Positions 3,253-34,745 of a DNA stretch of 34,745 nucleotides are shown here, in pieces (position 1 is the first letter of the stretch; each line of letters opens with the position of its first letter). Location: the IMG/VR virus record IMGVR_UViG_3300029319_000205, positions 1-34,745 of that record. One strand, written 5' to 3'. The notes under the pieces are model-generated. The model ran no database searches. It worked only from the letters and a program-made list of their open reading frames with translations, and was not told the origin of the DNA. Made by a program: the position numbers and the translations under genes. This DNA is from a virus.

Positions 3253-3533
3253 AAAATGACGACTGGCTCCTCCAAGCCTTAGAAGAAAACGAGTGTCTCC
3301 TAGCCGATGGTTTTGACAGCGCCCTGATAGGAATCACTTCGGGCATCAACCCCGTAGCTGTGTACGATATCAATCAGATGCTTACCATTCTAGTGAAAAG
3401 AGACAAGATGAATGTGGAGGATGCGCTAGAGCATCTTGACTTCAATGTCATCGGGGCGTATGTCGGAGAGAAGACTACCATATACATGGACCTAGACAAG
3501 ATTAGAGCATGCGCGTATGTACAGGATTATTGA
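3249..3533 (+). CDS. conserved phage hypothetical protein, 94 aa
   Basis: The product starts MKNDDWLLQALEENECLL, and its central block runs YDINQMLTILVKRDKMNVED followed by EHLDFNVIGAYVGEKT. This 'YD...iL..rdkM..edA.e...FNviGAYVGe.TP' pattern is one I recognise from many phage genomes as a conserved protein of unknown function. It is small, soluble and acidic. The start overlaps the previous stop as ATGA. Its last 25 bases overlap the signal-peptide region of the T9SS type B gene in another frame, which argues that the secreted gene is fully integrated in the phage operon. Confidence 0.75.
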   Translation: MKNDDWLLQALEENECLLADGFDSALIGITSGINPVAVYDINQMLTILVKRDKMNVEDALEHLDFNVIGAYVGEKTTIYMDLDKIRACAYVQDY

Positions 3534-4831
3534 TACTGCTTTGGATCGCTCCTCGATCCTATGCGCAGTGTGACCTAGAGATTTTAGAGTTTGACCCCGT
3601 AGGTGGTACAATCACCGTCGCGTTCAACAACACTCAGAGTTGCGGGGGTACTGGAGGGCCTGACGGTGTCTCTGAACTCCAGTTCGGTTTTCAGGCATTA
3701 GACGGGGACTGCAGCGCCATCAACCAGGGGTGGGAGTTTCCTTGGGGCCTCACTACATCTGACGACAGCAATCACCCTGGTTGGATTTTTTCTGCCACCA
3801 CCACAGAGTCGCAGACTAACTGGACCAACCTCGACTTCTGGGCAGAATACGACATATCCCCTCCTTACTATGCTGGGGACACTGTGGTATTCCCTCTGGA
3901 CGATTTCTATCAATCTAGTGGGACTAGCCTGTATGCCAATCTCCTGAACGCTTTCGACTTCTGGCTAGATCAAGACCTGAGTATACAGGCCGTGATTTGG
4001 CAGATCAGCTATGGTCCCACTATGTACGCTGACAACGGGGGGTGGGCAGAAGTCGGAAGCCTAGGTGGGGGTATCACCCCTCCCTGTTGCGGGATATATG
4101 ATGACGACAACTTCTTAGACAACTGGGTGATCGTAGGCCCATGCGGAGATCTCATCCCTGAGGTAGTGTATGACACGGTCTATGTCGAGCTACCACCAGA
4201 TACCGTAACTGTGTTAGAGGTGGATACAGTGTATGTCAACCTGCCGCCAGACACCGTAGTCATCTATGAGTACGACACGATACCCGTTGCGATCAATTGG
4301 TATTTCTACGACACCACCTATGTGTACTCCACTGATACGCTCTATGTAACTGAGTATCTTACAGATACAATCTACGTACCCTACTATGTATATGACACAG
4401 CATGGGTGGATCAGTATATATACGACACAACCTATGTCTATATACTTGACACTGTACTATCCACAGAATATGTATATGACACCGTATCCACCTATGAATA
4501 TGACTTGGTCGGTGTAGAGTGCGACACAGGGCTCCCGTGCTTAGAGCCCATCCCTGACTGCCCTATCTACCTCCCGAATGCGTTCACCCCAGACAACGAC
4601 GGGACGAACGATGTGTGGGGGGCTGAGACCAACCAGTCTTGCTGGTTAAGCTGGCTGCTTCGCGTATACTCTCGATATGGCGATGTAGTTTGGGAAAGCG
4701 AAGACCCGAGCGACGTGTGGTTAGGTGGCGATGAATACTATGTCCCTAGCGATGTATACAACTATCAACTGCAGTGCTCTATGCCTGGCAGCTCTTACGT
4801 CATCCAGGGATACGTAACGATAGTGCGATGA
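3509..4831 (+). CDS. secreted protein with T9SS type B (CHU_C) sorting domain, 440 aa
   Basis: The N-terminus MRVCTGLLILLWIAPRSYAQ is a Sec signal peptide (Arg, hydrophobic core, likely cleavage after Ala19). Residues 20-215 form a Cys-, Trp- and Asp-containing domain I cannot name. Residues 219-332 are a degenerate repeat of YDTVYV and LPPDTV units. Residues about 350-440 match the gliding-motility-associated C-terminal (CHU_C, T9SS type B) domain: YLPNAFTPDNDGTNDVW (354-370), VYSRYGDVVWES (386-397), PSDVYNYQLQC and final GYVTIVR. In Bacteroidota this directs export across the outer membrane, with host SprA/PorV/PorU-type components. It sits between a small phage gene (25-base overlap) and the terminase, so it is a phage gene and not flanking host DNA. 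Likely role: cell-surface or virion adhesin; unproven. Confidence 0.88.
   Translation: MRVCTGLLILLWIAPRSYAQCDLEILEFDPVGGTITVAFNNTQSCGGTGGPDGVSELQFGFQALDGDCSAINQGWEFPWGLTTSDDSNHPGWIFSATTTESQTNWTNLDFWAEYDISPPYYAGDTVVFPLDDFYQSSGTSLYANLLNAFDFWLDQDLSIQAVIWQISYGPTMYADNGGWAEVGSLGGGITPPCCGIYDDDNFLDNWVIVGPCGDLIPEVVYDTVYVELPPDTVTVLEVDTVYVNLPPDTVVIYEYDTIPVAINWYFYDTTYVYSTDTLYVTEYLTDTIYVPYYVYDTAWVDQYIYDTTYVYILDTVLSTEYVYDTVSTYEYDLVGVECDTGLPCLEPIPDCPIYLPNAFTPDNDGTNDVWGAETNQSCWLSWLLRVYSRYGDVVWESEDPSDVWLGGDEYYVPSDVYNYQLQCSMPGSSYVIQGYVTIVR
4163..4504 (+). repeat. degenerate YDTVYV-encoding repeat tract
   Basis: Roughly a dozen short units encode Tyr-Asp-Thr-(Val/Ile/Thr)-Tyr-Val and Leu-Pro-Pro-Asp-Thr-Val, giving a Tyr/Thr/Val/Asp-rich stalk between the N-terminal domain and the sorting domain of the secreted protein. 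At DNA level the words TATGACAC and ATACGACAC recur with variable spacing, so the tract is degenerate and not a clean satellite. Confidence 0.75.
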
Positions 4832-9428: not shown

Positions 9429-9841
9429 TGGCTAGTAAAGTAAATCTTGATGTCTCAGACAAACTAGACATCACGTGTAGAAAGGGTGACACATTTAATC
9501 TGAAGCTGTTGCTCAAAGATTCAACGGGTACAGCTTTGACCTTGACCACTTCGGGGTACGAATTCTTGATGCAGGTAAGAGGTAGGCAGAAGGTTCAAGG
9601 AGAGCGCAAACTTGTGATTGGAAGCGTAAATCGTGGCAAGGCTGCCGAGGATGGAATCAACTTCTCCTTCACCACTGACGACTCGGGTAATCTCACGATT
9701 ACAGCCAGCGACTCTATCATGAGGCAAGTTTCAGCGGGAAGATATGTCTATGACTTGCAGCAGATTTTGGATGGAGTTTCCACTACGATTTTGAGAGGAA
9801 GCTTTATTGTAAACGACGACATCTCTGAAGCTCTCGCCTAA
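9428..9841 (+). CDS. BppU-N-like baseplate or fibre-adaptor protein, 137 aa
   Basis: The product starts MASKVNLDVSDKLDITCRKGDTFN. The 'D.LDI..rkGDTF...L.lkDstGtaltLt' opening and following 'fLMQVRG' resemble the N-terminal beta domain of phage BppU-type receptor-binding or neck proteins, which anchor fibres. Later strands are Thr/Ser/Asp-rich and end in GSFIVNDDISEALA. It is coupled to the collagen-like fibre gene by TAATG (9839-9843), so a role as attachment domain or partner of that fibre is a reasonable inference. Confidence 0.7.
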   Translation: MASKVNLDVSDKLDITCRKGDTFNLKLLLKDSTGTALTLTTSGYEFLMQVRGRQKVQGERKLVIGSVNRGKAAEDGINFSFTTDDSGNLTITASDSIMRQVSAGRYVYDLQQILDGVSTTILRGSFIVNDDISEALA

Positions 9842-12237
9842 TGTCAACCACGATTACAGTAAGTGATGGGACTACCGTAACGGTAACTCAACCTGCGTCT
9901 AGCAGCATCTCTGTTTCTAGTCCAGGCGCAAAGGGCGATAAAGGAGATAAGGGAGACACGGGCGATACGGGGGCCACTGGCCCTGCAGGTGCTACGGGTG
10001 CCACGGGCGCTACAGGAGCTACAGGAGCTCAGGGGCCGCAAGGTCCACAAGGTGACACAGGACCAGCGGGATCAGACGGGGCAGACGGCACCTCACCCAA
10101 TGCGTTCACTACAATTGCTGTCTCTGGGCAAGACAATGTTGTGGCTGATGGGACGGCTGATACGCTCACGCTAGCGGAAGGCTCTAACATAACCCTTACT
10201 ACGAACGCCTCTAGTGACACAATCACCATTGCATCTACTGACACCAACACCCAGTTGAGCACTGAAGAGGTGCAAGACATTGTTGGGGCGATGTTCAGCT
10301 CCAACACGGAGACACGTATTTCTGCCACCTATCAGGACGCCGATGGTACAATTGACTTAGTGGTCGATGATATGACCGCTAATGATAATACGCAGAACAC
10401 CTATGCTATCTCGTGCGTAGATGGAGACAACTCCGACGAGGAAAAGATCAGGTTGACCCAGGGTGGTGCTGATGGGGTGGCAACAGACGATATTGTACTA
10501 GAGGCAGGCACGGGTCTTAGCATTGCTCGTAGTGGTGACAAGATTACGTTCACCAATACTGTCAGTGATACAAACACCCAATTGACAACTGAGCAAGTCC
10601 AAGACATTGTCGGGGCTATGTTCAGCTCGAATACCGAGACTAGAATTAGCGTTACCTATCAAGACGCTGACGGGACAATTGACTTAGTAGTCGATGACAT
10701 GACTGCTAACGACAACACGCAGAATACGTATGCTATTTCGTGTGTCGACGGAGATAACTCTGACGAAGAAAAGATTAGGTTGACGCAGGGCGGTGCGGAC
10801 GGCGTTGCAACAGATGATGTTGTCTTAGAGGCAGGCACAGGTCTTAGTATTGCTCGCAGCGGCGATAAGATTACGTTTACGAACACAGTCACGGACACCA
10901 ATACACAGTTGAGCACCGAGCAGGTGCAAGACATTGTGGGTGCGATGTTCAGCTCAAATACGGAGACACGTATTTCTGCCACCTATCAAGACGGTGACGG
11001 CACGATTGATTTGGTAGTCGACGACATGACGGCCAATGACAACACAACCTATAGTGTGTCTTGCGTCGATGGTGACAACTCTGATGAGGAGAAGATCCGA
11101 CTTACCGATAGTAGCGGTACTACGGATGACGTGGTGTTGGAAGCGGGGACGGGACTGAGTATCGCTCGTAGCGGAGACAAGATCACCTTTACCAATACCG
11201 TCAGTGACACCAACACTCAGTTGAGCACTGAAGAGGTACAAGATATTGTAGGAGCTATGTTTAGCTCCAACACGGAGACACGTATTTCTGCCACCTATCA
11301 GGATGGTGACGGTACGATCGACTTGGTGGTCGATGATATGACTGCCAACGATAACACCACTTATGGATTGTCTTGTGTAGACGGAGATAACTCTGATGAA
11401 GAGAAAATTCGTCTAACTGACAGCGGTGGCACTACGGATGACGTCGTTCTAGAGGCGGGCACGGGATTGAGTATAGCGCGTAGCGGAGACAAAATTACGT
11501 TTACGAATACCGTTAGTGACACCAATACTCAGTTGAGTACCGAGGAAGTTCAAGACATAGCTGGTGCTATGTTCAGCAGCAACACCGAGAGCGGTGTCAC
11601 TGCAACCTACCAAGACGCTGATGGCACCATCGACTTGGAGATCGACGCGGCTCAGACCACAATTACTTCCATTATCAACAGCAGTCTGACCAAAATTGGA
11701 ACAGCTACTGATCAGGAGTACATTGACTTCAGCACCGCTAATGAGGTGAACATTAAGGTTAATGACACTGAGCAGTTGAGTGCCACTAGCTCAGGTATCG
11801 ACATCAGGACTGAGTTGAACACGGCAAAGAATGTGTTTGCCAAGACAGCTAACACAGACTTCAGCGTTCAGGGAGATATTGTGAAGATTGGGACGGGAAG
11901 CACCACTCAGGGTGAGCTATGCTACTACAAGTCCGATGGCAGTTGGGCAGCGGCAGATGCGGACGCGGCTGCTACTTCGGGTGGATGCCTTCTGGCCATC
12001 GCACTGGGTACAGACCCAGACTCAGACGGCATGCTGCTCAGGGGGATGTTCACCTTGGACCACGACCCAGGAACTGTGGGAGACGTGCTATATGTGTCTA
12101 CCACGGCGGGTGATATAACCAGCACGGCACCTAGTGGCAATGGAGATATCGTGAGGATTGTGGGGTACTGCCTAGACAGTTCTAATGGACAGATCTGGTT
12201 CAATCCATCTAACGACTTCATTGAGATAACCGCGTAA
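9841..12237 (+). CDS. collagen-like tail fibre with large internal repeats, 798 aa
   Basis: Order of domains: a short beta N-terminus (1-28); 18 perfect Gly-X-Y triplets (29-82), which would form a trimeric collagen-like rod; a linker; then four near-identical units of 109, 109, 104 and 104 residues plus a fifth partial unit (about 134-600), each built around TNTQLSTEEVQDIVGAMFSS, a DGTIDLVVDDMTANDN segment, VDGDNSDEEKIRLT and GTGLSIARSGDKITFTNTV; and a C-terminal head with GDVLYVSTTAGDITST and WFNPSNDFIE, seen in phage fibre tips. It is Asp/Thr-rich with few aromatics in the shaft, typical of trimeric fibres. It probably mediates host attachment. The shaft length can change by repeat gain or loss. 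Confidence 0.88.
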   Translation: MSTTITVSDGTTVTVTQPASSSISVSSPGAKGDKGDKGDTGDTGATGPAGATGATGATGATGAQGPQGPQGDTGPAGSDGADGTSPNAFTTIAVSGQDNVVADGTADTLTLAEGSNITLTTNASSDTITIASTDTNTQLSTEEVQDIVGAMFSSNTETRISATYQDADGTIDLVVDDMTANDNTQNTYAISCVDGDNSDEEKIRLTQGGADGVATDDIVLEAGTGLSIARSGDKITFTNTVSDTNTQLTTEQVQDIVGAMFSSNTETRISVTYQDADGTIDLVVDDMTANDNTQNTYAISCVDGDNSDEEKIRLTQGGADGVATDDVVLEAGTGLSIARSGDKITFTNTVTDTNTQLSTEQVQDIVGAMFSSNTETRISATYQDGDGTIDLVVDDMTANDNTTYSVSCVDGDNSDEEKIRLTDSSGTTDDVVLEAGTGLSIARSGDKITFTNTVSDTNTQLSTEEVQDIVGAMFSSNTETRISATYQDGDGTIDLVVDDMTANDNTTYGLSCVDGDNSDEEKIRLTDSGGTTDDVVLEAGTGLSIARSGDKITFTNTVSDTNTQLSTEEVQDIAGAMFSSNTESGVTATYQDADGTIDLEIDAAQTTITSIINSSLTKIGTATDQEYIDFSTANEVNIKVNDTEQLSATSSGIDIRTELNTAKNVFAKTANTDFSVQGDIVKIGTGSTTQGELCYYKSDGSWAAADADAAATSGGCLLAIALGTDPDSDGMLLRGMFTLDHDPGTVGDVLYVSTTAGDITSTAPSGNGDIVRIVGYCLDSSNGQIWFNPSNDFIEITA
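9925..10086 (+). repeat. collagen-like Gly-X-Y repeat, 18 triplets
   Basis: Eighteen consecutive nine-base units encode Gly-X-Y with no break (GAKGDKGDKGDTGDTG at the start, GDTGPAGSDGAD at the end). The GCTACGGG/GCTACAGG words vary synonymously. Such tracts in phage fibres form stable triple helices even without hydroxyproline. Confidence 0.92.
10240..11640 (+). repeat. large tandem protein repeats in the fibre shaft (327/327/312/312 bases plus partial)
   Basis: Units start at 10240, 10567, 10894, 11206 and 11518 (partial, to about 11640), each at the codon for Asp in DTNTQL. The first two units carry an extra five residues relative to the next two. The encoded units are almost identical, but the DNA differs at many third positions between units. 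An exception is a 28-base block that is identical in units 1, 3 and 4 (10307-10334, 10961-10988, 11273-11300) but recoded in unit 2. Confidence 0.9.
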
Positions 12238-13458: not shown

Positions 13459-13466
13459 TATATTTG
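13459..13466 (+). promoter_or_regulatory. Bacteroidota-type -7 element, leaderless spacing
   Basis: TATATTTG is followed by exactly four bases (TGTA) and the ATG at 13471. It overlaps the stop region of the previous gene (TTGATTTA context shared with the promoter at 6964). It probably drives the envelope cassette 13471-18709 as one leaderless-start transcript. Confidence 0.65.
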
Positions 13467-13470
13467 TGTA

Positions 13471-16158
13471 ATGTCCTCAGAGTCAATACGAAACAGGATC
13501 AAGAGGCTTCTCAAAAAGCATGGTCTGAAGGGCGTCAATAAGCCAAAGCGCACTCCTCAGCACCCGAAGAAGTCCCACATCGTACTAGCCAAAGAGGGAA
13601 ACAAAGTGAAGCTGATCCGATACGGTCAGCAGGGGGCAAAGACAGCGGGTAAACCAAAAGCGGGGGAGAGCGATCGCATGAAGAAGAAGCGTGCAAGCTT
13701 CAAGGCTCGCCATCGGCGCAACATCAAGAAGGGTAAGATGAGTGCGGCATACTGGGCCAATAAGTCTAAGTGGTGTCTACTCTTCCCGATCCTGTCTCTG
13801 CAGGCTCAGAGTTGGTTGAACGTAGAGTTTGTTTCGGATCAGTATGCAGCGGAGAGTAGCTGGGAGATTCTAGCAGACACCAACGTCGTGGCTTCGGGTG
13901 TAGCAGGAGAGACTTTGGTCAACCTGCCGCCTGGTCCGTATACGTTCGTAGCCTACGACAGCTTTGGCGATGGTATTTGTTGCGAGTATGGAGAGGGGTA
14001 TATCGTCTTGAGCAATGCATGTGGTTTAGATATCGAAGTCTTAGACTTCAACACCGCACAGCTTGACATCCCGATCAACCTATTGCCTTGTCCGCCGCCT
14101 GTGTTAGGGTGTATGGATCAGCAGGCCACCAACTACAACCCAGAGGCCATCTTCGAGGGGGAGCCTTGTTTGTATGAGGTTACGTTTAGGCTAGACTTGA
14201 ATGGCCCACACCCAGAGGGGATTGTAACGCCCGAGGTCAACTCAGACTACTTCGGTTGGTGCGGGTCATGTGTTCCGATGGAGGACGCTAATGGTGACGG
14301 GGTGTGGGAGGTCACTGTCTCTATGGCTGCTGGGCAGTATCTGTGGAAGTTTTCTGCAGATAACTGGACGTATCAAGAACTGCCTGTCGGCGTTGCCGAG
14401 TCCCCGTGTTTTATTTTCGATGAGTTTGGGTATGTAAACCGACCTCTGAACGTACAGGGCCCTATGGCCCTCCCGCCTTTCTGTTGGGAGAGTTGCCTGC
14501 CCTGCGGAGCTATCCCAGGCTGCACAAACCCCGAGGCAATCAACTGGAACCCGTGGGCCAACTTCGATCAGAACTGCAACATTCTAGAGTCAGCCGACTG
14601 CGACCTCACCGAAACGGAGGTTATGGTGGTTATTGTCCCTGACAACTACCCAGGGGAAACGGGCTGGTCGCTGGTAGATGTGACCAACGATGAAATCCTT
14701 GCCGCTGTTTTGGCTGGCGAATACGCAGGAGAACCTACAGGAATCCCGATCTTCAGTAGTGTCTGTGCTCCCATTGGCAGTCAGCTCTCGTTTACCATCA
14801 GCGATGTTTATGGTGACGGAGTCAACGGCGCCCAGTGGGGTGGAGAGGACGGCGGGTTTGGTCTCCTTGCTTGCGGGGAGGAGGTCTATGCCATGGACCC
14901 TGCACAGGCCAACTTCGGATACAACTTCCAGCACCTCTTCCAGGCTCCTGCTTGCCTAGAGATAGAGGATATCGTTGGCTGTGGCGATCCCGACTATCTC
15001 GAGTATAACCCGAACGCGACGGTATTCCTTGACTTGTTGTGCGAGACCCCCGTGGTATACGGCTGTATTGACAGCGCGTACTACAACTACGACTCGCTTG
15101 CAAACGTAGAGCTACAGCCCGACTCTTGCTTCTATACGCTGACGCTCACTGACGGTGCTGCTGACGGATGGTTCGGTAGCTGGCTGGGAGTGCGTCAGGG
15201 TGAGTGGTTGTCCCCACAGTATAAGATGGGACCAGAGGATGGATTGGAAGAGTCCTTTGAGCTGTATTTGTCTAGCGACGAAGAAGTAGAGTTGTACTTC
15301 TTCCCTACCCCGCAGTCTATGTTCACCGTGGCTCAGTGTGGCTTCATGCTCGAAGGGCCAACAGGAGACACCCTCGTCAACGTGCCACAGTGGAGCATCA
15401 TCCCCTTCCCGTACACGTACAAGGCCACAACATACTGTGGGAACTTTTGTGAAGAGTTTGCCTACGGATGCTTAGACACTTTGGCTCAAAACTACGATGC
15501 CTATGCCAACAGCCCTGACAGCAGTTGTTACTACGCTGCAGGGTGCATGCAAGCTGGATATTTAGAGTACTACACTCAAGGGTACGAGGCTGACTATGAC
15601 GATGGGTCTTGTTTAACGTTGGCGGTATTTGGTTGCACAGACTCTACTGCATTGAACTTTGACGCGGGGGCCAACGTAGACAACGGAAGTTGCATCCCCG
15701 TTGTAGTAGGGTGCATGGATCTGTCCGCATACAACTACAATGCGGAAGCCAATACCGAAGGTGATTGCCTGTATGATGCGGGGTGCGCTACAGGTCCAGG
15801 CGTCCCGTACTGGCTGAACGACTCTTGCTACGCTTGGGTCATCGAGGTCGACCCGTATTGCTGCGAGGCAGAGTGGGATGGGGGGTGTATCGGGCTGTAC
15901 GATTACTGTCAGCAGGGGTGGCCTACGGGTATTCCTGAGTTAGCAGACGAGGTTACGATCCGCCCGACGGTAGTTGAGCACAAGTTCTATGTGGACTCCC
16001 CATACCCGTTTGTATTGACTGTCTTCGATGCCACTGGCAGGGAGGTGTTGAGATCGTCAAGGGCTACGCAGGACGCATCGGATTGGCCTGTCGGGACATA
16101 TCACCTGGTAGTAGTTTCTGACAATCGCATGTTCAAGCAAACTATCGTCAAGCTATGA
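13471..16158 (+). CDS. fusion of a basic phage domain and a secreted T9SS type A surface protein, 895 aa
   Basis: Residues 1-101 are a Lys/Arg-rich domain with KSHIVLAKEGNKVKLIRYGQ, ASFKARHRRNIKKGKMSAAY and WANKSKW; stand-alone phage proteins of this type (I recall DUF6321, to be verified) usually end right there. Here the frame continues into CLLFPILSLQAQS (102-114), a signal-peptide core, and then an extracellular protein. That part has two 'DSFGDGICCEYG'-like domains (about 115-206 and 380-495), a CBM-like domain with WCGSCVPMEDANGDGVWEV (263-282) and WTYQELPVG, eight GC.D..A.NYN..AN...C repeats, a VDPYCCEAEWDGGC module (793-806) and a C-terminal T9SS type A sorting domain (about 828-895: VFDATGREVL, WPVGTYHLVV, FKQTIVKL). 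An internal Met90 could start a normal secretory precursor. The stop overlaps the next ATG. Confidence 0.88.
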   Translation: MSSESIRNRIKRLLKKHGLKGVNKPKRTPQHPKKSHIVLAKEGNKVKLIRYGQQGAKTAGKPKAGESDRMKKKRASFKARHRRNIKKGKMSAAYWANKSKWCLLFPILSLQAQSWLNVEFVSDQYAAESSWEILADTNVVASGVAGETLVNLPPGPYTFVAYDSFGDGICCEYGEGYIVLSNACGLDIEVLDFNTAQLDIPINLLPCPPPVLGCMDQQATNYNPEAIFEGEPCLYEVTFRLDLNGPHPEGIVTPEVNSDYFGWCGSCVPMEDANGDGVWEVTVSMAAGQYLWKFSADNWTYQELPVGVAESPCFIFDEFGYVNRPLNVQGPMALPPFCWESCLPCGAIPGCTNPEAINWNPWANFDQNCNILESADCDLTETEVMVVIVPDNYPGETGWSLVDVTNDEILAAVLAGEYAGEPTGIPIFSSVCAPIGSQLSFTISDVYGDGVNGAQWGGEDGGFGLLACGEEVYAMDPAQANFGYNFQHLFQAPACLEIEDIVGCGDPDYLEYNPNATVFLDLLCETPVVYGCIDSAYYNYDSLANVELQPDSCFYTLTLTDGAADGWFGSWLGVRQGEWLSPQYKMGPEDGLEESFELYLSSDEEVELYFFPTPQSMFTVAQCGFMLEGPTGDTLVNVPQWSIIPFPYTYKATTYCGNFCEEFAYGCLDTLAQNYDAYANSPDSSCYYAAGCMQAGYLEYYTQGYEADYDDGSCLTLAVFGCTDSTALNFDAGANVDNGSCIPVVVGCMDLSAYNYNAEANTEGDCLYDAGCATGPGVPYWLNDSCYAWVIEVDPYCCEAEWDGGCIGLYDYCQQGWPTGIPELADEVTIRPTVVEHKFYVDSPYPFVLTVFDATGREVLRSSRATQDASDWPVGTYHLVVVSDNRMFKQTIVKL
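13738..13806 (+). other. internal start and embedded signal peptide within the fusion gene
   Basis: ATG 13738 (Met90) would give MSAAYWANKSKW, then the hydrophobic core CLLFPILSLQA, then cleavage before Gln113-Ser114. This is a normal Sec signal peptide of 23 residues whose n-region consists of the last residues of the basic phage domain. Whether translation really starts here is not visible from sequence. Confidence 0.5.
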
Positions 16159-17189
16159 GGTTTCTGTTAGTTCTACTCCTGTGCATCCCACTAGCGAGTG
16201 GGGCTCAGACACTGAAAAAGGCGTTTCGGTTCTCGACTTTCTATGCGGCTGTCAACGGAAACAACTCGCTTTCTGACTACAAGACTTATTCGGTTGTCAA
16301 TGGTCCTCTGTCTACAGACATCGTAGAGACTCCGTTCGACTACTCTTTGACTCTTGGTATCCGCAAGATCGCTAGGTTCAAGTACGAGAACAGGGCCAAC
16401 GTCTTCTACAACGGCGAGGAGCACTCCTATTCCGATGCAGCTACGATCGGCACGGTCAAAGGTTTCGAGTTTCTGTTCGAAAGCGACTACCGCAGGCAGC
16501 AGGGGGTTCTGTACCTAGACCAGAACCACTTTCTGAGATATGTTGGGGGTAGGTTCGTAGGGAAAGTGGAGTATGTACAGGACGGCTTTGCTGACGTGAG
16601 CTACCTAGAGGCTTCCCAGAGATTGCGTATCAACTCTAAGGGTAAGCTGTCTTTCAATATCGGTGCAGCTCAGCGCATCTCGGAGCCGTATGGGTACAAC
16701 CCACTGAAGCAATGGGAGTTGCCAAACGGAAGTTTACACTACACGCAACTTGCTTTCAGTCAAGGCTATAGCTACGACTTCTCTACGGGGGAGTACATGG
16801 ACCCCGACGGGACAGTTGTCGCTAGTAGCTTCGAGGTGTGGCGGGAGGTTGTCATTCCCCAGGTCCTTGACGACTACGTACAGCTCAAGCGTAGCGAGTT
16901 AGACACAGAGTGGAACTATTCTCTGGTCGCGGGCTTTGACTACTACCACTACACCAAAGACTTTTGGTTGCACTCGTGGGGTAATGTCTTGCCTCGGCAT
17001 TTAGATACGGGGTCAGAGTTTTCCTACTTCCAGCTCAACGGCGGGCAGTGGGTTGACTATAGTGGGGGATTGATTTTTGGTTGGAAGCTAAACAGATCCC
17101 TGGGCTGCTTCCTTGAGGGTAGATACAACAAGTATTGGAACAGGGAGTGGCACGACTTCTCGGTCGGGGTCAACTACGTAATATTCTAA
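16155..17189 (+). CDS. outer-membrane beta-barrel protein, 344 aa
   Basis: A signal peptide, MRFLLVLLLCIPLASGAQ, with cleavage likely after Ala17, leads a mature protein of alternating aromatic/polar strands (FRFSTFYAAVNG, YSLTLGIRKIARF, VEYVQDGFADVSY, WNYSLVAGFDYYHY) and short turns. The last residues, SVGVNYVIF, end in Phe, the terminal aromatic that BAM recognises on outer-membrane barrels. Length suits a 12-16-strand barrel. The start overlaps the stop of the T9SS fusion gene (ATGA), so the two are translated together. It may anchor or expose the secreted protein, modify the host surface, or be a virion protein; barrels of this kind recur in marine phage genomes as far as I recall. Confidence 0.78.
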   Translation: MRFLLVLLLCIPLASGAQTLKKAFRFSTFYAAVNGNNSLSDYKTYSVVNGPLSTDIVETPFDYSLTLGIRKIARFKYENRANVFYNGEEHSYSDAATIGTVKGFEFLFESDYRRQQGVLYLDQNHFLRYVGGRFVGKVEYVQDGFADVSYLEASQRLRINSKGKLSFNIGAAQRISEPYGYNPLKQWELPNGSLHYTQLAFSQGYSYDFSTGEYMDPDGTVVASSFEVWREVVIPQVLDDYVQLKRSELDTEWNYSLVAGFDYYHYTKDFWLHSWGNVLPRHLDTGSEFSYFQLNGGQWVDYSGGLIFGWKLNRSLGCFLEGRYNKYWNREWHDFSVGVNYVIF

Positions 17190-17191
17190 TT

Positions 17192-17476
17192 ATGGCAAAA
17201 GAGATCAACGAGGATATGGGGTTCAACGTCAGCCTGAAAACTTTGGCTGGTATTGGAGTCGGGATGGCGTCTCTCATCGGAATGTGGTTTACCCTGCAGG
17301 CCGATATCGCTGAGGCGAAGGAGCTCCCAGCCCCTCTGCCCTCAGAAGTTTCGCGCATGGAGTTCGACATGAAGGACCAACTGATCCGTCAGACGATTAT
17401 GTCTACCCAGGAGGATGTGGGGGAGATCAAAGAGGACATCAAGCGTATTGAAGAAAAAATCGATAAACTCAAATAA
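17192..17476 (+). CDS. membrane-anchored coiled-coil protein, lysis candidate, 94 aa
   Basis: I choose ATG 17192, two bases after the barrel gene's stop. The product has one hydrophobic segment at about 15-37 (LKTLAGIGVGMASLIGMWF), a Pro-rich hinge (KELPAPLPSEV), then a long amphipathic coiled coil (about 54-94) ending IKRIEEKIDKLK. One transmembrane helix plus a coiled coil is a layout seen in holins of the XhlA kind (in reverse order) and in inner-membrane spanin subunits. A lysis role is plausible next to envelope genes but is not shown by any specific motif; a membrane tether for phage assembly is the alternative. Confidence 0.7.
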   Translation: MAKEINEDMGFNVSLKTLAGIGVGMASLIGMWFTLQADIAEAKELPAPLPSEVSRMEFDMKDQLIRQTIMSTQEDVGEIKEDIKRIEEKIDKLK

Positions 17477-17484
17477 GATGAACA

Positions 17485-17850
17485 ATGAAAAGTGTGCTTG
17501 CCCTCTTTGTCTTGTCTGCTCTGTTCTCGGCCACTGTCTTTGTGGCTGCGCCTGCGGACAGTGAAGTGTGCGAGTCTGGCGTTTGCGTTGTAGAGTTCAA
17601 CGCAAGTTTCAACGCCACCAACAGTGTCCCGTGGATTGAGAAGTTGAGCGACTGTTCGACGTCTCGTGTAGATATTGTCTCAAGCCCTGATCTACAGCAG
17701 AAACATAAGATCGTAGTAGTCCCTACTATTATTATCTTTAACGACGGAGAGGAAGTAGAAAGATTTCAGGCAAACATTATGATGGCTATCGAAGCCTCTA
17801 AATCTGATGTCCAAGAGGCTGTAGATGAAATCCTAATGAGCTCGTTCTGA
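17485..17850 (+). CDS. exported thioredoxin-fold protein lacking CXXC, 121 aa
   Basis: A signal sequence, MKSVLALFVLSALFSATVFV, gives export. The mature domain follows the thioredoxin order: strand VVEFNASF (35-42), a helix where the active site would be, strand RVDIVSSPDL, then the cis-proline strand KIVVVPTIIIFNDGEEVERF (75-94) with Pro80, and a C-terminal helix. The site equivalent to WCGPC reads SFNATNS, so the redox cysteines are gone; instead a separate CESGVC pair lies at 29-34 before the first strand, plus Cys57. It is therefore likely a binding or folding scaffold, or uses unusual cysteines. It lies in the periplasm, beside the coiled-coil membrane protein and the barrel. Confidence 0.75.
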   Translation: MKSVLALFVLSALFSATVFVAAPADSEVCESGVCVVEFNASFNATNSVPWIEKLSDCSTSRVDIVSSPDLQQKHKIVVVPTIIIFNDGEEVERFQANIMMAIEASKSDVQEAVDEILMSSF

Positions 17851-18035
17851 TGAAGACAGTCAAGTACAACAAAGGCGGTAAGTTGAAAATTAGTCAGAAG
17901 ACTGCTACCGTAGATCCGCCAGCAGGTCATCACTGGATGCTCGAAAACGGACGGTACTTCCTGATGAAAGGGGAATACAAGCCGCATCCTGGTGCTGTCA
18001 AGAAGGCCAAGTTCAAGTTAGTTAGCCATGGCTAA
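17850..18035 (+). CDS. small basic phage protein, 61 aa
   Basis: The product starts MKTVKYNKGGKLKISQKTAT and contains the block AGHHWMLENGRYFLMKGEYK followed by PHPGAVKKAKFKLVSHG. This 'P..G.HWM.e.GRYyLMkG.Y.PHpGAvkkAkFK' layout is one I recognise from phage genomes of marine Bacteroidota-type viruses, function unknown. It is coupled by TGATG to the thioredoxin-like gene and overlaps the next gene by eight bases. Its high Lys content and the three similar neighbours suggest virion proteins that touch DNA. Confidence 0.7.
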   Translation: MKTVKYNKGGKLKISQKTATVDPPAGHHWMLENGRYFLMKGEYKPHPGAVKKAKFKLVSHG

Positions 18036-23269: not shown

Positions 23270-23277
23270 TATATTTG
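23270..23277 (+). promoter_or_regulatory. Bacteroidota-type -7 element, leaderless spacing
   Basis: TATATTTG is followed by TAAT and the ATG at 23282, the same four-base spacing as at 168 and 13459. It is placed immediately after the terminator, giving a compact terminator-promoter boundary. Confidence 0.7.
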
Positions 23278-23281
23278 TAAT

Positions 23282-24547
23282 ATGAAGTTCTTCCTGTTCC
23301 GTAAAGAGGTTGTAAGCCTGTTTAGTGAGACTAAATCCAATACTGGCGATGGTATCTCTGTATTTGGAGTGCCTGCCGACAGCATTGCTAATATGACCGC
23401 TACTGTAGGGGCTGTACACTTGCTGTTCAAAGACGCTGGTGCGTACGACAACTTCAGTGGCGCTACCCAAGAGGGACTAGAAAAAGTTCGTGTTAGCGTC
23501 TCCTGCACAGAGGGAGAGGAGTTTGAACTCATACGAGAGATTATGGAGTTCATAGCTAGTGATAGCAAGAAGAGCGTGATGGTAATGGATGCGGTCAGCG
23601 GATTCTCCACTTTCAATCGTGCCTCCGACGGTGCTGTGCTCGCCACTATCCCCGCACAGCCTGTGATTCTAGCTACTGGGGACTCGGCACAAAACCCAGC
23701 GTCGACAGAAAAGACAGGGACGAGCACCACTTTGATTGCTGGTGTTACGTTCCCTTCTCAAACTCAACGCCCCACTATTGACTTCAACTCTCAGAGTTTG
23801 TCAGCAGCGGCAGATGGAGCTCGTGTGGGTAGTAGCGTGACATGGACGAACTCAGGCACCGACGGTAGCACTTTTGATATAGACGGGAACACTAACGATC
23901 CCTTGCTTCGGCCTACGTCTACAGTGAATCTAGCAGAACGCGCTGTGGAGTTTGCAAACAATCAGGCCGCTCACCTTGCTGCGGCTAAAACTGTAGAGGG
24001 CGACTACACGATGTACATGGTGTATAGCGACAATCAAGTTCGATCTGTAAATCAGATATATGGCAGTTCGGCGACGACCTCTAAAGGCTTTGGCAACGGC
24101 ACTACTGAGGATACGATGTTCTTCACTTTTGATGGCAACACGGGGGATCCTGCCGCGCTGAGCCTGGACACAACAGAGTTCAACACAAAACAGATTAAAA
24201 TTCAGGACCCAAAGTTAGACGACGTAAGTTCGGTAGGTGCTGCTTCGGCTGGCGCTCAAATTTGCTATGTTTGGGTAATTCGTAGGGACAAGAACTTCAA
24301 TATTATAGTTCATGACTACAAAGGAGATGTCGTAGGATACTTGCCTGCTAAGGTGGGTGGGGAGGCATCAGATCCAGGCCGCACCGACGGAGACCTAACT
24401 ATCGACAGGTTAGGTGGAGACGGGTCTAACACCTTGTGGGTGGGCAACATCGCTCGATTTGGTGTTATCGAAACAGACATCGGTAGATCACAAGCAGCAC
24501 GTATAGCTAGAGAGCTGTTTGATACCTACAATGCTTTCGTTTTTTGA
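23282..24547 (+). CDS. virion protein with C-terminal ConA-like domain, 421 aa
   Basis: Residues 1-125 form a compact domain (FFLFRKEVVSLFSETKSNTG, VFGVPADSIANMTATVG, EGLEKVRVSVSCTEGEEFEL, IMEFIASDSKKSVMVMDAVS) that I associate with phage head proteins of marine viruses, without a known role. After a Thr-rich linker, residues about 160-421 read like a concanavalin-like jelly roll: RPTIDFNSQSLS, the strand YTMYMVYSDNQVRS, TMFFTFDGNTGDP, QICYVWVIRRDKNF, and the ending WVGNIARFGVIETDIG then AARIARELFDTYN, the usual last strand and helix of these lectins. Suggested role: glycan-binding head fibre. It has its own leaderless promoter. Confidence 0.72.
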   Translation: MKFFLFRKEVVSLFSETKSNTGDGISVFGVPADSIANMTATVGAVHLLFKDAGAYDNFSGATQEGLEKVRVSVSCTEGEEFELIREIMEFIASDSKKSVMVMDAVSGFSTFNRASDGAVLATIPAQPVILATGDSAQNPASTEKTGTSTTLIAGVTFPSQTQRPTIDFNSQSLSAAADGARVGSSVTWTNSGTDGSTFDIDGNTNDPLLRPTSTVNLAERAVEFANNQAAHLAAAKTVEGDYTMYMVYSDNQVRSVNQIYGSSATTSKGFGNGTTEDTMFFTFDGNTGDPAALSLDTTEFNTKQIKIQDPKLDDVSSVGAASAGAQICYVWVIRRDKNFNIIVHDYKGDVVGYLPAKVGGEASDPGRTDGDLTIDRLGGDGSNTLWVGNIARFGVIETDIGRSQAARIARELFDTYNAFVF

Positions 24548-25416: not shown

Positions 25417-25446
25417 AAGGCCGCCTTGAGCGGCCTTTTCTTTTTT
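25417..25446 (+). terminator. intrinsic terminator
   Basis: Eight pairs, AAGGCCGC (25417-25424) with GCGGCCTT (25430-25437), close a five-base loop CTTGA and are followed by TTCTTTTTT. It is a strong Rho-independent terminator. The T-tract runs straight into the next promoter element, whose first T is base 25446. Confidence 0.92.
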
Positions 25447-25453
25447 ATATTTG
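25446..25453 (+). promoter_or_regulatory. Bacteroidota-type -7 element fused to terminator T-tract
   Basis: TATATTTG begins in the last T of the terminator run, and the ATG at 25459 follows after five bases, which again suggests a leaderless or near-leaderless message. A TTG in the terminator loop (25426-25428), 17 bases upstream, could serve as a -33 element. Confidence 0.68.
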
Positions 25454-25458
25454 TATCT

Positions 25459-26262
25459 ATGATTAGCGTACAGCGGGTATATGAGACGGTGAGGGAAATC
25501 TGTAACAAAGACCAGAAAGGGTTTGTTACTCCACTAGTCTTTGACACCTTGGCTCGAGTAGCACAACAGAACGTCTACAACGAGATGTTCAATGAGCTGA
25601 AGATTGCCAATGCTTTGCGAGCTGCAGGAAGGGATGCAGGGAGAGACAAGTCAGCTTATAAGATGGTAGAGGAGGATTTGGCGATGTTCATCCGTCAAGT
25701 AGGTATTGACGTTGCTAACGAGTCTGACGTCTATGAAGTGCAAATCACGGACGAAAATGGGGTTATCACTACAGAGGCCGTTGATCCCGAGGACGGCATT
25801 AGTTTTGTGAAGCCGCTGGATTTGTCCCGCATCATCAACATGTATGTTACGGGGACAAACACCTCTGTAGAGCTGATCTACGATGCAGAGAAAGCTCAGA
25901 GAGTGTTGCAAAGCAATCTTTCTACCCCCACGCAAGAGTTCCCTACTGCCCTAGTGATGGGCAACTACGTTCAGGTGTTTCCAGAGGCAGTAGAGGCGGT
26001 TACGTTGGTCTACTATCGTCAGCCACGCTCTAGAGTCATTGCAACTGACGCGGTGGATTTTGAGTCACACCCTACGTACTCTACTATTTCTGTAGATGCC
26101 GCTACGGGATTCACTATCTTCAATGAGTTCGACTCTCGCAACTTTGACTTGCCCGAGCATTACTTCAACGAAGTGGTGTCAGAGATTGTCAAGATGATCG
26201 GGGTCAGGCTCAGAGACACTACCCTTACCTCGTATGGGTTGCAACAAACGCAAGCTGAATAA
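25459..26262 (+). CDS. connector/ring-type protein, crAss-like, 267 aa
   Basis: The start is placed at ATG 25459 (MISVQRVYETVREICNKDQK); an upstream TTG at 25426 lies inside the terminator and is not credible. The N-terminal block, VYETVREICNKDQKGFVTPL then FDTLARVAQQNVYNEMFNEL, matches the opening I recall for crAss-like ring or portal-vertex proteins ('Vyeyvr.llnKdq.G.itP.eFn.lA..aQ...'). The middle contains DLSRIINMYV, a long beta region with EFPTALVMGNYVQVFPEAVE, and YYRQPRSRVIATD (typical of phage connector proteins, 'yyR.P..p'). A closing helix (HYFNEVVSEIVKMIGVRLRD) would pack in the ring. It forms part of the head-tail connector. Confidence 0.75.
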   Translation: MISVQRVYETVREICNKDQKGFVTPLVFDTLARVAQQNVYNEMFNELKIANALRAAGRDAGRDKSAYKMVEEDLAMFIRQVGIDVANESDVYEVQITDENGVITTEAVDPEDGISFVKPLDLSRIINMYVTGTNTSVELIYDAEKAQRVLQSNLSTPTQEFPTALVMGNYVQVFPEAVEAVTLVYYRQPRSRVIATDAVDFESHPTYSTISVDAATGFTIFNEFDSRNFDLPEHYFNEVVSEIVKMIGVRLRDTTLTSYGLQQTQAE

Positions 26263-33831: not shown

Positions 33832-33839
33832 TATTTTTG
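33832..33839 (+). promoter_or_regulatory. Bacteroidota-type -7 element TATTTTTG, leaderless spacing
   Basis: TATTTTTG fits TAnnTTTG, and the ATG at 33844 follows after four bases (AATT), the same spacing as the other leaderless candidates. It drives the last, incomplete gene of the window. Confidence 0.6.
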
Positions 33840-33843
33840 AATT

Positions 33844-34745
33844 ATGTCTGTACTTCTTAGTCTTGTCCCTTCAGTCTTGGGAACTGTCTCAGGTCTAGCC
33901 CAACAGAGGCGATTGCGCCAAGACCTAGCCGAAAGGCAACAAGAAGCTGAAGGGCAATTCGATCGTAGTCTACAGGCCATCCGCGATATCAGCTTCGAGC
34001 CGAGCCAGCAGCTCCGTGACGCCCGCATGTCTCAGCTTGAGGCAGGGAGGGCCATCGGCGATTTGGCGGCGCAGAGGACTGACGAAGCCCAAGCTCGGGC
34101 TATCGCAGCTTTGCGTGACTCCCCACGGGATTTGCAGTCAGTAGGGACGAGAGTAATCGACAGCGCCTTGGATGCACAGCAGCAGGCTGACATTGCAGGC
34201 ACGCAGCAGACTTTGGATGCAGAGCTTGGGATGGCAGAGGACGCCGAGGCAGCACGCATGCGGGGGATTCAGAGAGACCTGTCTCTAGAGCAGATGCTGA
34301 TGGGGAGGGCTGCTCAGGCTGGGGATGCTGCTCAGACGGGCATCTTTGCTAGCCAAGCGGCAGGAACAGAAGCGATTCAAGCGCTAGGAAATTTGGGCAC
34401 TCAGGCTCTACTTCAAGGAGTCAACTTCAAGAAAATACGAGGGGGTAAGGACTCGACTGACACAACGGGGATTGGTCTCACAGGTTTCGGGACTGTAGAT
34501 GCAGGTTTTGGCACAGGGGCCGCGAGCGGCATCGGCATGATGGGGACACAGTTGAATTTTGATGGGACCGTCAATTTTGATGGCAACCCAGCCACAGGCA
34601 ACGGATTAGAAAAAGGCGGTTATATCGGTGAAGAAGGTGGGGTGACCGAGGGGGAGTTTGACCACGACACCAACAAGAAGGCCATCATCGACGAGGAGAA
34701 CGGACAGAAAGAAGGGGAGCTGACAGGTGGGGAGATGGTGCTCAA
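33844..34745 (+). CDS. tail-associated coiled-coil protein, 3' end beyond the window
   Basis: The first 300 codons are present. A hydrophobic N-terminus (MSVLLSLVPSVLGTVSGLAQ, possibly a membrane-penetrating segment) precedes a long Ala/Gln/Arg/Glu-rich helical region (about 20-180), then Gly/Thr/Phe-rich turns (IGLTGFGTVDAGFGTGAASG) and finally YIGEEGGVTEGEFDHDTNKK, then KEGELTGGEMVLN. The last segment ('GEfDHdTNKKAIIDEenGqkegElTGGEmVlN') is one I associate with large phage virion proteins that are ejected or internal. No stop is reached. If the window ends are joined, it closes in frame with GGKFRILKN and a stop at base 31. Possible roles are internal or ejection protein; the head-to-tail order supports that. 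Confidence 0.75.
   Translation, partial: MSVLLSLVPSVLGTVSGLAQQRRLRQDLAERQQEAEGQFDRSLQAIRDISFEPSQQLRDARMSQLEAGRAIGDLAAQRTDEAQARAIAALRDSPRDLQSVGTRVIDSALDAQQQADIAGTQQTLDAELGMAEDAEAARMRGIQRDLSLEQMLMGRAAQAGDAAQTGIFASQAAGTEAIQALGNLGTQALLQGVNFKKIRGGKDSTDTTGIGLTGFGTVDAGFGTGAASGIGMMGTQLNFDGTVNFDGNPATGNGLEKGGYIGEEGGVTEGEFDHDTNKKAIIDEENGQKEGELTGGEMVL

Follow-up and report, generated by a model that had tools for sequence, protein, structure and literature searches.

Does a phage of Bacteroidota encode a small basic phage protein and a protein exported to the surface of its host within one reading frame, and how many products would such a frame deliver? The question is raised by an open reading frame (13471-16158, plus strand) in a viral contig of 34,745 nt, which we analyzed over its whole length and call the window. 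The original prediction described a lysine-rich phage domain running directly into a secreted protein of Bacteroidota style, with the end of the first domain serving as part of a signal peptide and a second product possibly starting at an internal ATG. The terminase of the window matches Flavobacterium and uncultured phages at 41-49%, with further matches in Cellulophaga phages. Portal and virion phrogs were matched as well, and in a comparison with Crassvirales-like phages a muzzle match was found at sub-threshold level only.

The fusion frame and its two parts

The features of the frame, with the basis of each assignment, are as follows:

13459..13466, plus strand: TATATTTG, predicted Bacteroidota -7 promoter box, separated by 4 nt from the ATG (spacing rule; conserved; enriched)
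13471..13773, plus strand: basic domain, residues 1-101, hereafter BASIC (phrog_7595 match; Lys/Arg-rich; usually a gene of its own ending KW-stop)
13738..13740, plus strand: Met90, the proposed internal start (sequence; no consistent start signature in its context)
13774..13806, plus strand: predicted signal-peptide hydrophobic core and c-region, residues 102-112, CLLFPILSLQA (hydropathy; pN/pS; Q at +1)
13807..16155, plus strand: SEC, predicted mature secreted protein from Gln113 to residue 895, containing repeats rich in Cys as well as beta domains (own signal peptide present in homologues)
15949..16155, plus strand: T9SS type A sorting domain, residues 827-895 (TIGR04183; fold match to T9SS C-terminal domains; PDB sequence matches)

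The frame is open over 895 codons with zero internal stops. Positions 6-96 of the 96 positions of the phrog_7595 profile align with residues 11-101 (E=2.2e-38), and since the match reaches the last position of the profile, the end of the stand-alone domain coincides with the fusion point. BASIC carries a net charge of +29. Past W101 the frame runs 794 residues further, whereas the nearest phrog_7595 copies end KW-stop: in our two main viral scans, each of the 130 stand-alone copies has its stop immediately behind W101, exactly where the original prediction had placed the end of the domain, and the only frames open past W101 are fusions to SEC. Broader pattern scans detected more distant BASIC lineages with 1-17 extra polar residues or with the domain embedded in large virion-like proteins, so the strict stop is limited to the nearer relatives. 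The frame is, therefore, a fusion containing a phrog_7595 domain and no plain member of this family, whose close relatives are small basic proteins in marine phages of Roseobacter, Synechococcus and others. A PDB sequence search with BASIC gave no match, and in Pfam no match passed the cut-off for the fusion, BASIC or the downstream barrel protein. Modelling of the fusion gave a structure of low overall confidence (mean pLDDT 62, pTM 0.27), which was used for the C-terminal domain only; it suggests a helical and beta-hairpin BASIC domain followed by a low-confidence join. In a fold search with the whole model, the C-terminal domain dominated the results, and the BASIC fold was barely probed.

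SEC is about 782 residues long, and its final 69 residues form the sorting domain. The C-terminus scores 23.2 bits against TIGR04183 (T9SS type A; cut-off 23), a profile matched by all 18 SEC relatives scanned (best E=9e-15). The modelled C-terminus superposes on 8glk_D, the NucA substrate in a T9SS complex, with Z 10.6 and an rmsd of 1.4 over 69 residues, and solved T9SS sorting-domain structures were also matched by sequence in PDB. Thus, profile, PDB sequence and fold agree on the predicted type A sorting domain, and SEC should reach the host surface. The predicted repeats are visible too, with about eight GC.D..NYN-like copies counted by eye. Elsewhere in the window, a second exported protein (3509-4831) has a Q-rule signal peptide and, at 34.5 bits, narrowly misses the cut-off of 35 for the T9SS type B sorting domain; its relatives lie beside the gene cassette described below in two contigs (L011, L016) and on the same contig in another (L027). 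A collagen-like, tandemly repeated gene at 9841-12237 appears fibre-like and matches virion structural and tail fibre families.

The same in-frame join was found in eight other contigs (L002-L009, all from IMG/VR), which together with the window represent nine fused contigs and seven distinct versions. The distance from W101 to S114 is exactly 12 residues in every one of them, and their SEC parts are 74-97% identical to that of the window. All data are metagenomic assemblies, so that a missed stop or a frameshift had to be considered, but recurrence of the join, in frame, in independent contigs excludes an assembly error, and we regard an artefact as vanishingly improbable. The observation of BASIC fused in frame to a SEC protein with predicted export signals is confirmed in phages of Bacteroidota. 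Nor are the two parts always separate genes, although they are separate among more distant homologues: SEC proteins at greater distance (41-57% identity) occur unfused, with a signal peptide of their own at the same place and, in most of them, Q there. Weak junction-spanning matches (L409-L426), where opened, turned out to be stand-alone copies, one of them (L413) with one extra residue.

BASIC genes with hydrophobic tails (L310, L333, L336, L349, L384, L367 and others) were considered as repeated signal-peptide fusions. This class was rejected, because the tails of the main group derive from intergenic DNA, which is conserved at third codon positions too, as well as from an overlap with the next gene in another frame. 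Downstream of BASIC in five of these contigs (L310, L333, L336, L349, L384) lies a conserved DNA motif, AAGTGGACAAT....C.AATTGGT.., which looks regulatory.

An inserted cassette and exchange at the join

Comparison with sister phages shows that SEC is the first gene of a four-gene cassette, inserted exactly between the last codon of BASIC and the former stop/start overlap. Downstream of SEC, the following genes complete the cassette and mark its border:

16155..17189, plus strand: outer-membrane beta-barrel protein with a Q-rule signal peptide; its start overlaps the SEC stop (ATGA)
17192..17476, plus strand: small membrane coiled-coil protein, made up of a single hydrophobic segment plus a coiled-coil-like tail (sequence; conservation within the cassette)
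17485..17850, plus strand: exported thioredoxin-like protein that lacks the usual CxxC; its gene closes the cassette (thioredoxin model below cut-off)
17850..18035, plus strand: resident gene, directly 3' of BASIC in sister phages, right border of the insert (sister-phage comparison)

In eight sister contigs (L082, L085, L086, L088, L090, L093, L096, L097) the empty site reads AAGTGG (or AAATGG) followed by TAATGA, in which the BASIC stop overlaps the start of the next gene; two further contigs (L032, L036) have TGATGA in place of TAATGA. At this position, the window, L002 and L007 read AAGTGG, then the insert from TGT to TTC, then T(A/G)ATGA. A crossing at the microhomology AAGTGGT is a plausible origin of the insertion. 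The cassette moves as a unit, with permuted order in L024-L028 and at another location in unfused phages. Signal-peptide-like N-termini are shared by three of the cassette proteins, namely SEC, the barrel and the thioredoxin-like protein. The barrel model (mean pLDDT 68) resembles generic porin and autotransporter barrels. The thioredoxin-like protein without a CxxC active site is conserved near a Cys-rich secreted protein. Scanning host genomes with SEC gave no match. With the barrel, five contigs from metagenome-assembled genomes (MAGs) were found, of which three carry further cassette genes and are probably phage sequence. Two MAG contigs labelled archaeal (L405, L406) have the barrel gene behind an open frame of more than 2500 residues in the place of SEC, and in L405 the membrane coiled-coil gene also lies behind this frame.

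The join is a recombination breakpoint. Between the window and L002, synonymous differences amount to about 74% up to codon 101, 10% in the join and 14% in SEC, with codon 99 as the last mismatch before a near-identical stretch; other pairs reverse this pattern (L003 and L006, with BASIC close and SEC distant). L437 (3965-6373) encodes a mosaic SEC, in which the N-terminal two thirds come from the fused clade, whereas the C-terminal domain is different; this N-terminal body is about 90% identical to that of the fused L004, and the protein has its own start and signal peptide. The opposed divergence patterns and this mosaic indicate that BASIC and SEC are exchanged as modules. Since the body of L437 is so similar to that of L004 despite its own start, the mature SEC body appears to be interchangeable between fused and unfused settings and may well work alike in both. 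In the BASIC tree, a single clade of fused copies is not rejected (p-AU 0.87); in the SEC tree, the fused proteins formed one clade until L437 fell inside.

Within BASIC, mean pN/pS is 0.22 over residues 1-89 and 0.06 over residues 90-101; the join has 0.11 and SEC 0.18. These values are individually rough, as many synonymous distances are saturated and the short segments have few sites. They leave no room for relaxed constraint on BASIC or on SEC: each is under strong purifying selection, and the two of them, like the signal core, are conserved at the protein level. This bears on the possibility that the fusion is an evolutionary accident, in which a lost stop joined two genes and either BASIC or the join has no function. 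The microhomology AAGTGGT may have given rise to such an insertion. Nevertheless, BASIC and the join have stayed under strong purifying selection in versions so diverged that synonymous sites approach saturation, and the frame is kept in nine of nine contigs, which makes a mere accident quite improbable.

One precursor or two starts

If both halves keep their function, strong selection on both implies that more than one product is probably needed. To this extent the predicted two products from one gene stand; the route proposed for the second product, initiation at Met90, is not specifically supported, for the reasons given below.

Directly after W101 follows CLLFPILSLQAQS, which is the hydropathy maximum of the N-terminus. 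With residues 90-101 as n-region and residues 102-112 as core and c-region, a putative signal peptide of 23 residues results, which overlaps the end of the first domain as predicted, and the cut is predicted between Ala112 and Gln113; the sequence LQA followed by Q is present in seven of seven fused versions. At the sequence level, Q at +1 matches the Bacteroidetes Q-rule, i.e., Gln at +1 of signal peptidase I substrates (PMC5837995). The candidate Sec signal peptide of SEC has a signal-like core and an A-Q cut site, yet it is internal to a long frame.

The predicted promoter lies four bases upstream of the BASIC start. For Flavobacterium johnsoniae, position -5 is reported to be the G of TAnnTTTG (PMC6847099), and the predicted transcript would, therefore, begin at the A of the BASIC ATG as a leaderless mRNA; such mRNAs are a minority in Bacteroidota hosts. 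A TATATTTG-type unit precedes BASIC in all seven fused versions. Counted over the seven fused phages together, an ATG follows at gap 4 for 17 of 50 boxes, compared to 0.47 in base-shuffled controls, which keep base composition only; the genomes are related, so that not all sites are independent. In the window, TA..TTTG-N4(5)-ATG units were found at 168-180, 13459-13471, 23270-23282, 25446-25459 and 33832-33844; besides BASIC, they precede genes starting at 180, 23282 and 33844 (gap 4) and at 25459 (gap 5). Such putatively leaderless TATATTTG-N4-ATG units bear on gene expression by Bacteroidota phages.

We prefer a single precursor, which signal peptidase I would cleave at the internal signal peptide, and give this reading an even chance of being correct. 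A four-gene surface cassette would have entered the genome behind the last codon of a small basic phage gene, and its first gene would have lost its own start to become an in-frame continuation of BASIC. A presumably leaderless mRNA would be read as one precursor, whose basic domain may remain in the cytoplasm, the presumed site of action of the stand-alone copies, while residues about 90-112 would form a Sec signal peptide inside the frame, its n-region supplied by the last residues of BASIC. Signal peptidase I would cut between Ala112 and Gln113, releasing BASIC with an 11-residue hydrophobic tail as well as SEC, which the host type IX secretion system would carry to the cell surface via the C-terminal domain. 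There, it might alter the surface of the infected cell, for instance by blocking a second phage.

The precursor is preferred because it explains the data with fewer assumptions: both products come from one start, the Q-rule fits, and no new start is needed. In its favor are a Gln directly behind the predicted cut, whether SEC is fused or not, the constant 12-residue join of the nine fused contigs, the low pN/pS of both halves and of the join, unfused SEC relatives with an ordinary signal peptide at the same place including the L437 body, and the leaderless unit before BASIC in every fused version, while Met90 has no consistent start signature. On the other hand, a very basic n-region of 100 residues would be atypical of signal peptides, and after the cut BASIC would be left with a tail of 11 additional residues; that the nearest stand-alone copies all stop after W101 suggests that a free C-terminus matters.

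The main alternative assumes two starts in one frame, with Met1 giving the long fusion and Met90 the secreted protein with the 23-residue signal peptide. Met90 does lie at 13738; it is present in every fused version, always with A at -3, and its signal peptide would have an ordinary length and a charge of +2. Further, two contigs appear to start SEC within an upstream gene: in L010 (6420-6554 and 6481-8952) and L017 (1068-1202 and 1129-3834), a small basic gene of 44 residues, behind a TATATTTG unit, overlaps SEC by 74 nt, and a usable SEC ATG and the start of the signal peptide lie inside it in another frame. Internal starts, therefore, probably occur in this family, which counts against the precursor. 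However, most stand-alone copies carry Met90 already, so it pre-dates the fusion and was not selected by it. Context and RNA structure at Met90 are mixed, being moderately start-like in the window, L003, L004 and L009 but not in L002 and L006; in L002, RNA structure at the site is stronger than at any of the starts listed for the window. Codons 90-101 have no excess synonymous constraint (pS 0.89), and free BASIC would still not be produced. Two starts are thus possible but in our view rather unlikely.

A precursor might also be exported and stay uncut, as a type II membrane protein whose cytoplasmic end is BASIC; single-span proteins of N-in topology that carry a cytoplasmic domain are common. 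As the c-region keeps the A-Q pattern of cleaved Bacteroidota substrates in all versions, and T9SS cargo must leave the inner membrane, this is very improbable.

Relation to known systems

T9SS type A cargo encoded by a phage has already been published for Cryophage (PMC7468147), T9SS cargo is also reported in crAss-like BACON phages (PMC6949934), and BFVD holds a 'Secretion system C-terminal sorting domain' protein of an uncultured virus. As far as these sources were consulted, they share sorting-domain cargo in a Bacteroidota phage with the window and mention no fusion of this kind; in the window, the cargo is the C-terminal part of a fusion, and the signal peptide uses the end of a basic protein. 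Q-rule signal peptides have been published for P. gingivalis phages (PMC10367356), and these substrates, like those of PMC5837995, likewise have Gln at +1, whereas the signal peptide of the window is internal, after a basic domain of 100 residues. For the Cryophage cargo, a surface change such as superinfection exclusion was proposed (PMC7468147), and by analogy a role of SEC in changing the surface of the infected cell, e.g., superinfection exclusion, is a natural guess.

In the open-access literature, we found no phage gene of this fused design and no such layout described for tailed phages. If the precursor reading is true, a single cut would hold the amounts of a cytoplasmic basic protein and of a host-surface protein in a fixed ratio. 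The locus also offers a natural case in which a cassette entered a genome by extending a resident gene in frame, and in which the join served again as a site of recombination.

A likeness in plan is found in unrelated viruses. In flaviviruses and hepatitis C virus, a basic capsid protein is followed by an internal signal peptide and an exported protein, separated by a signal peptidase cut. A tailed phage may follow the plan of this capsid-envelope junction by making a signal-peptidase-processed polyprotein, with a nucleic-acid-binding-like cytoplasmic protein and a T9SS cargo in one leaderless frame; we rate this full reading at slightly less than even.
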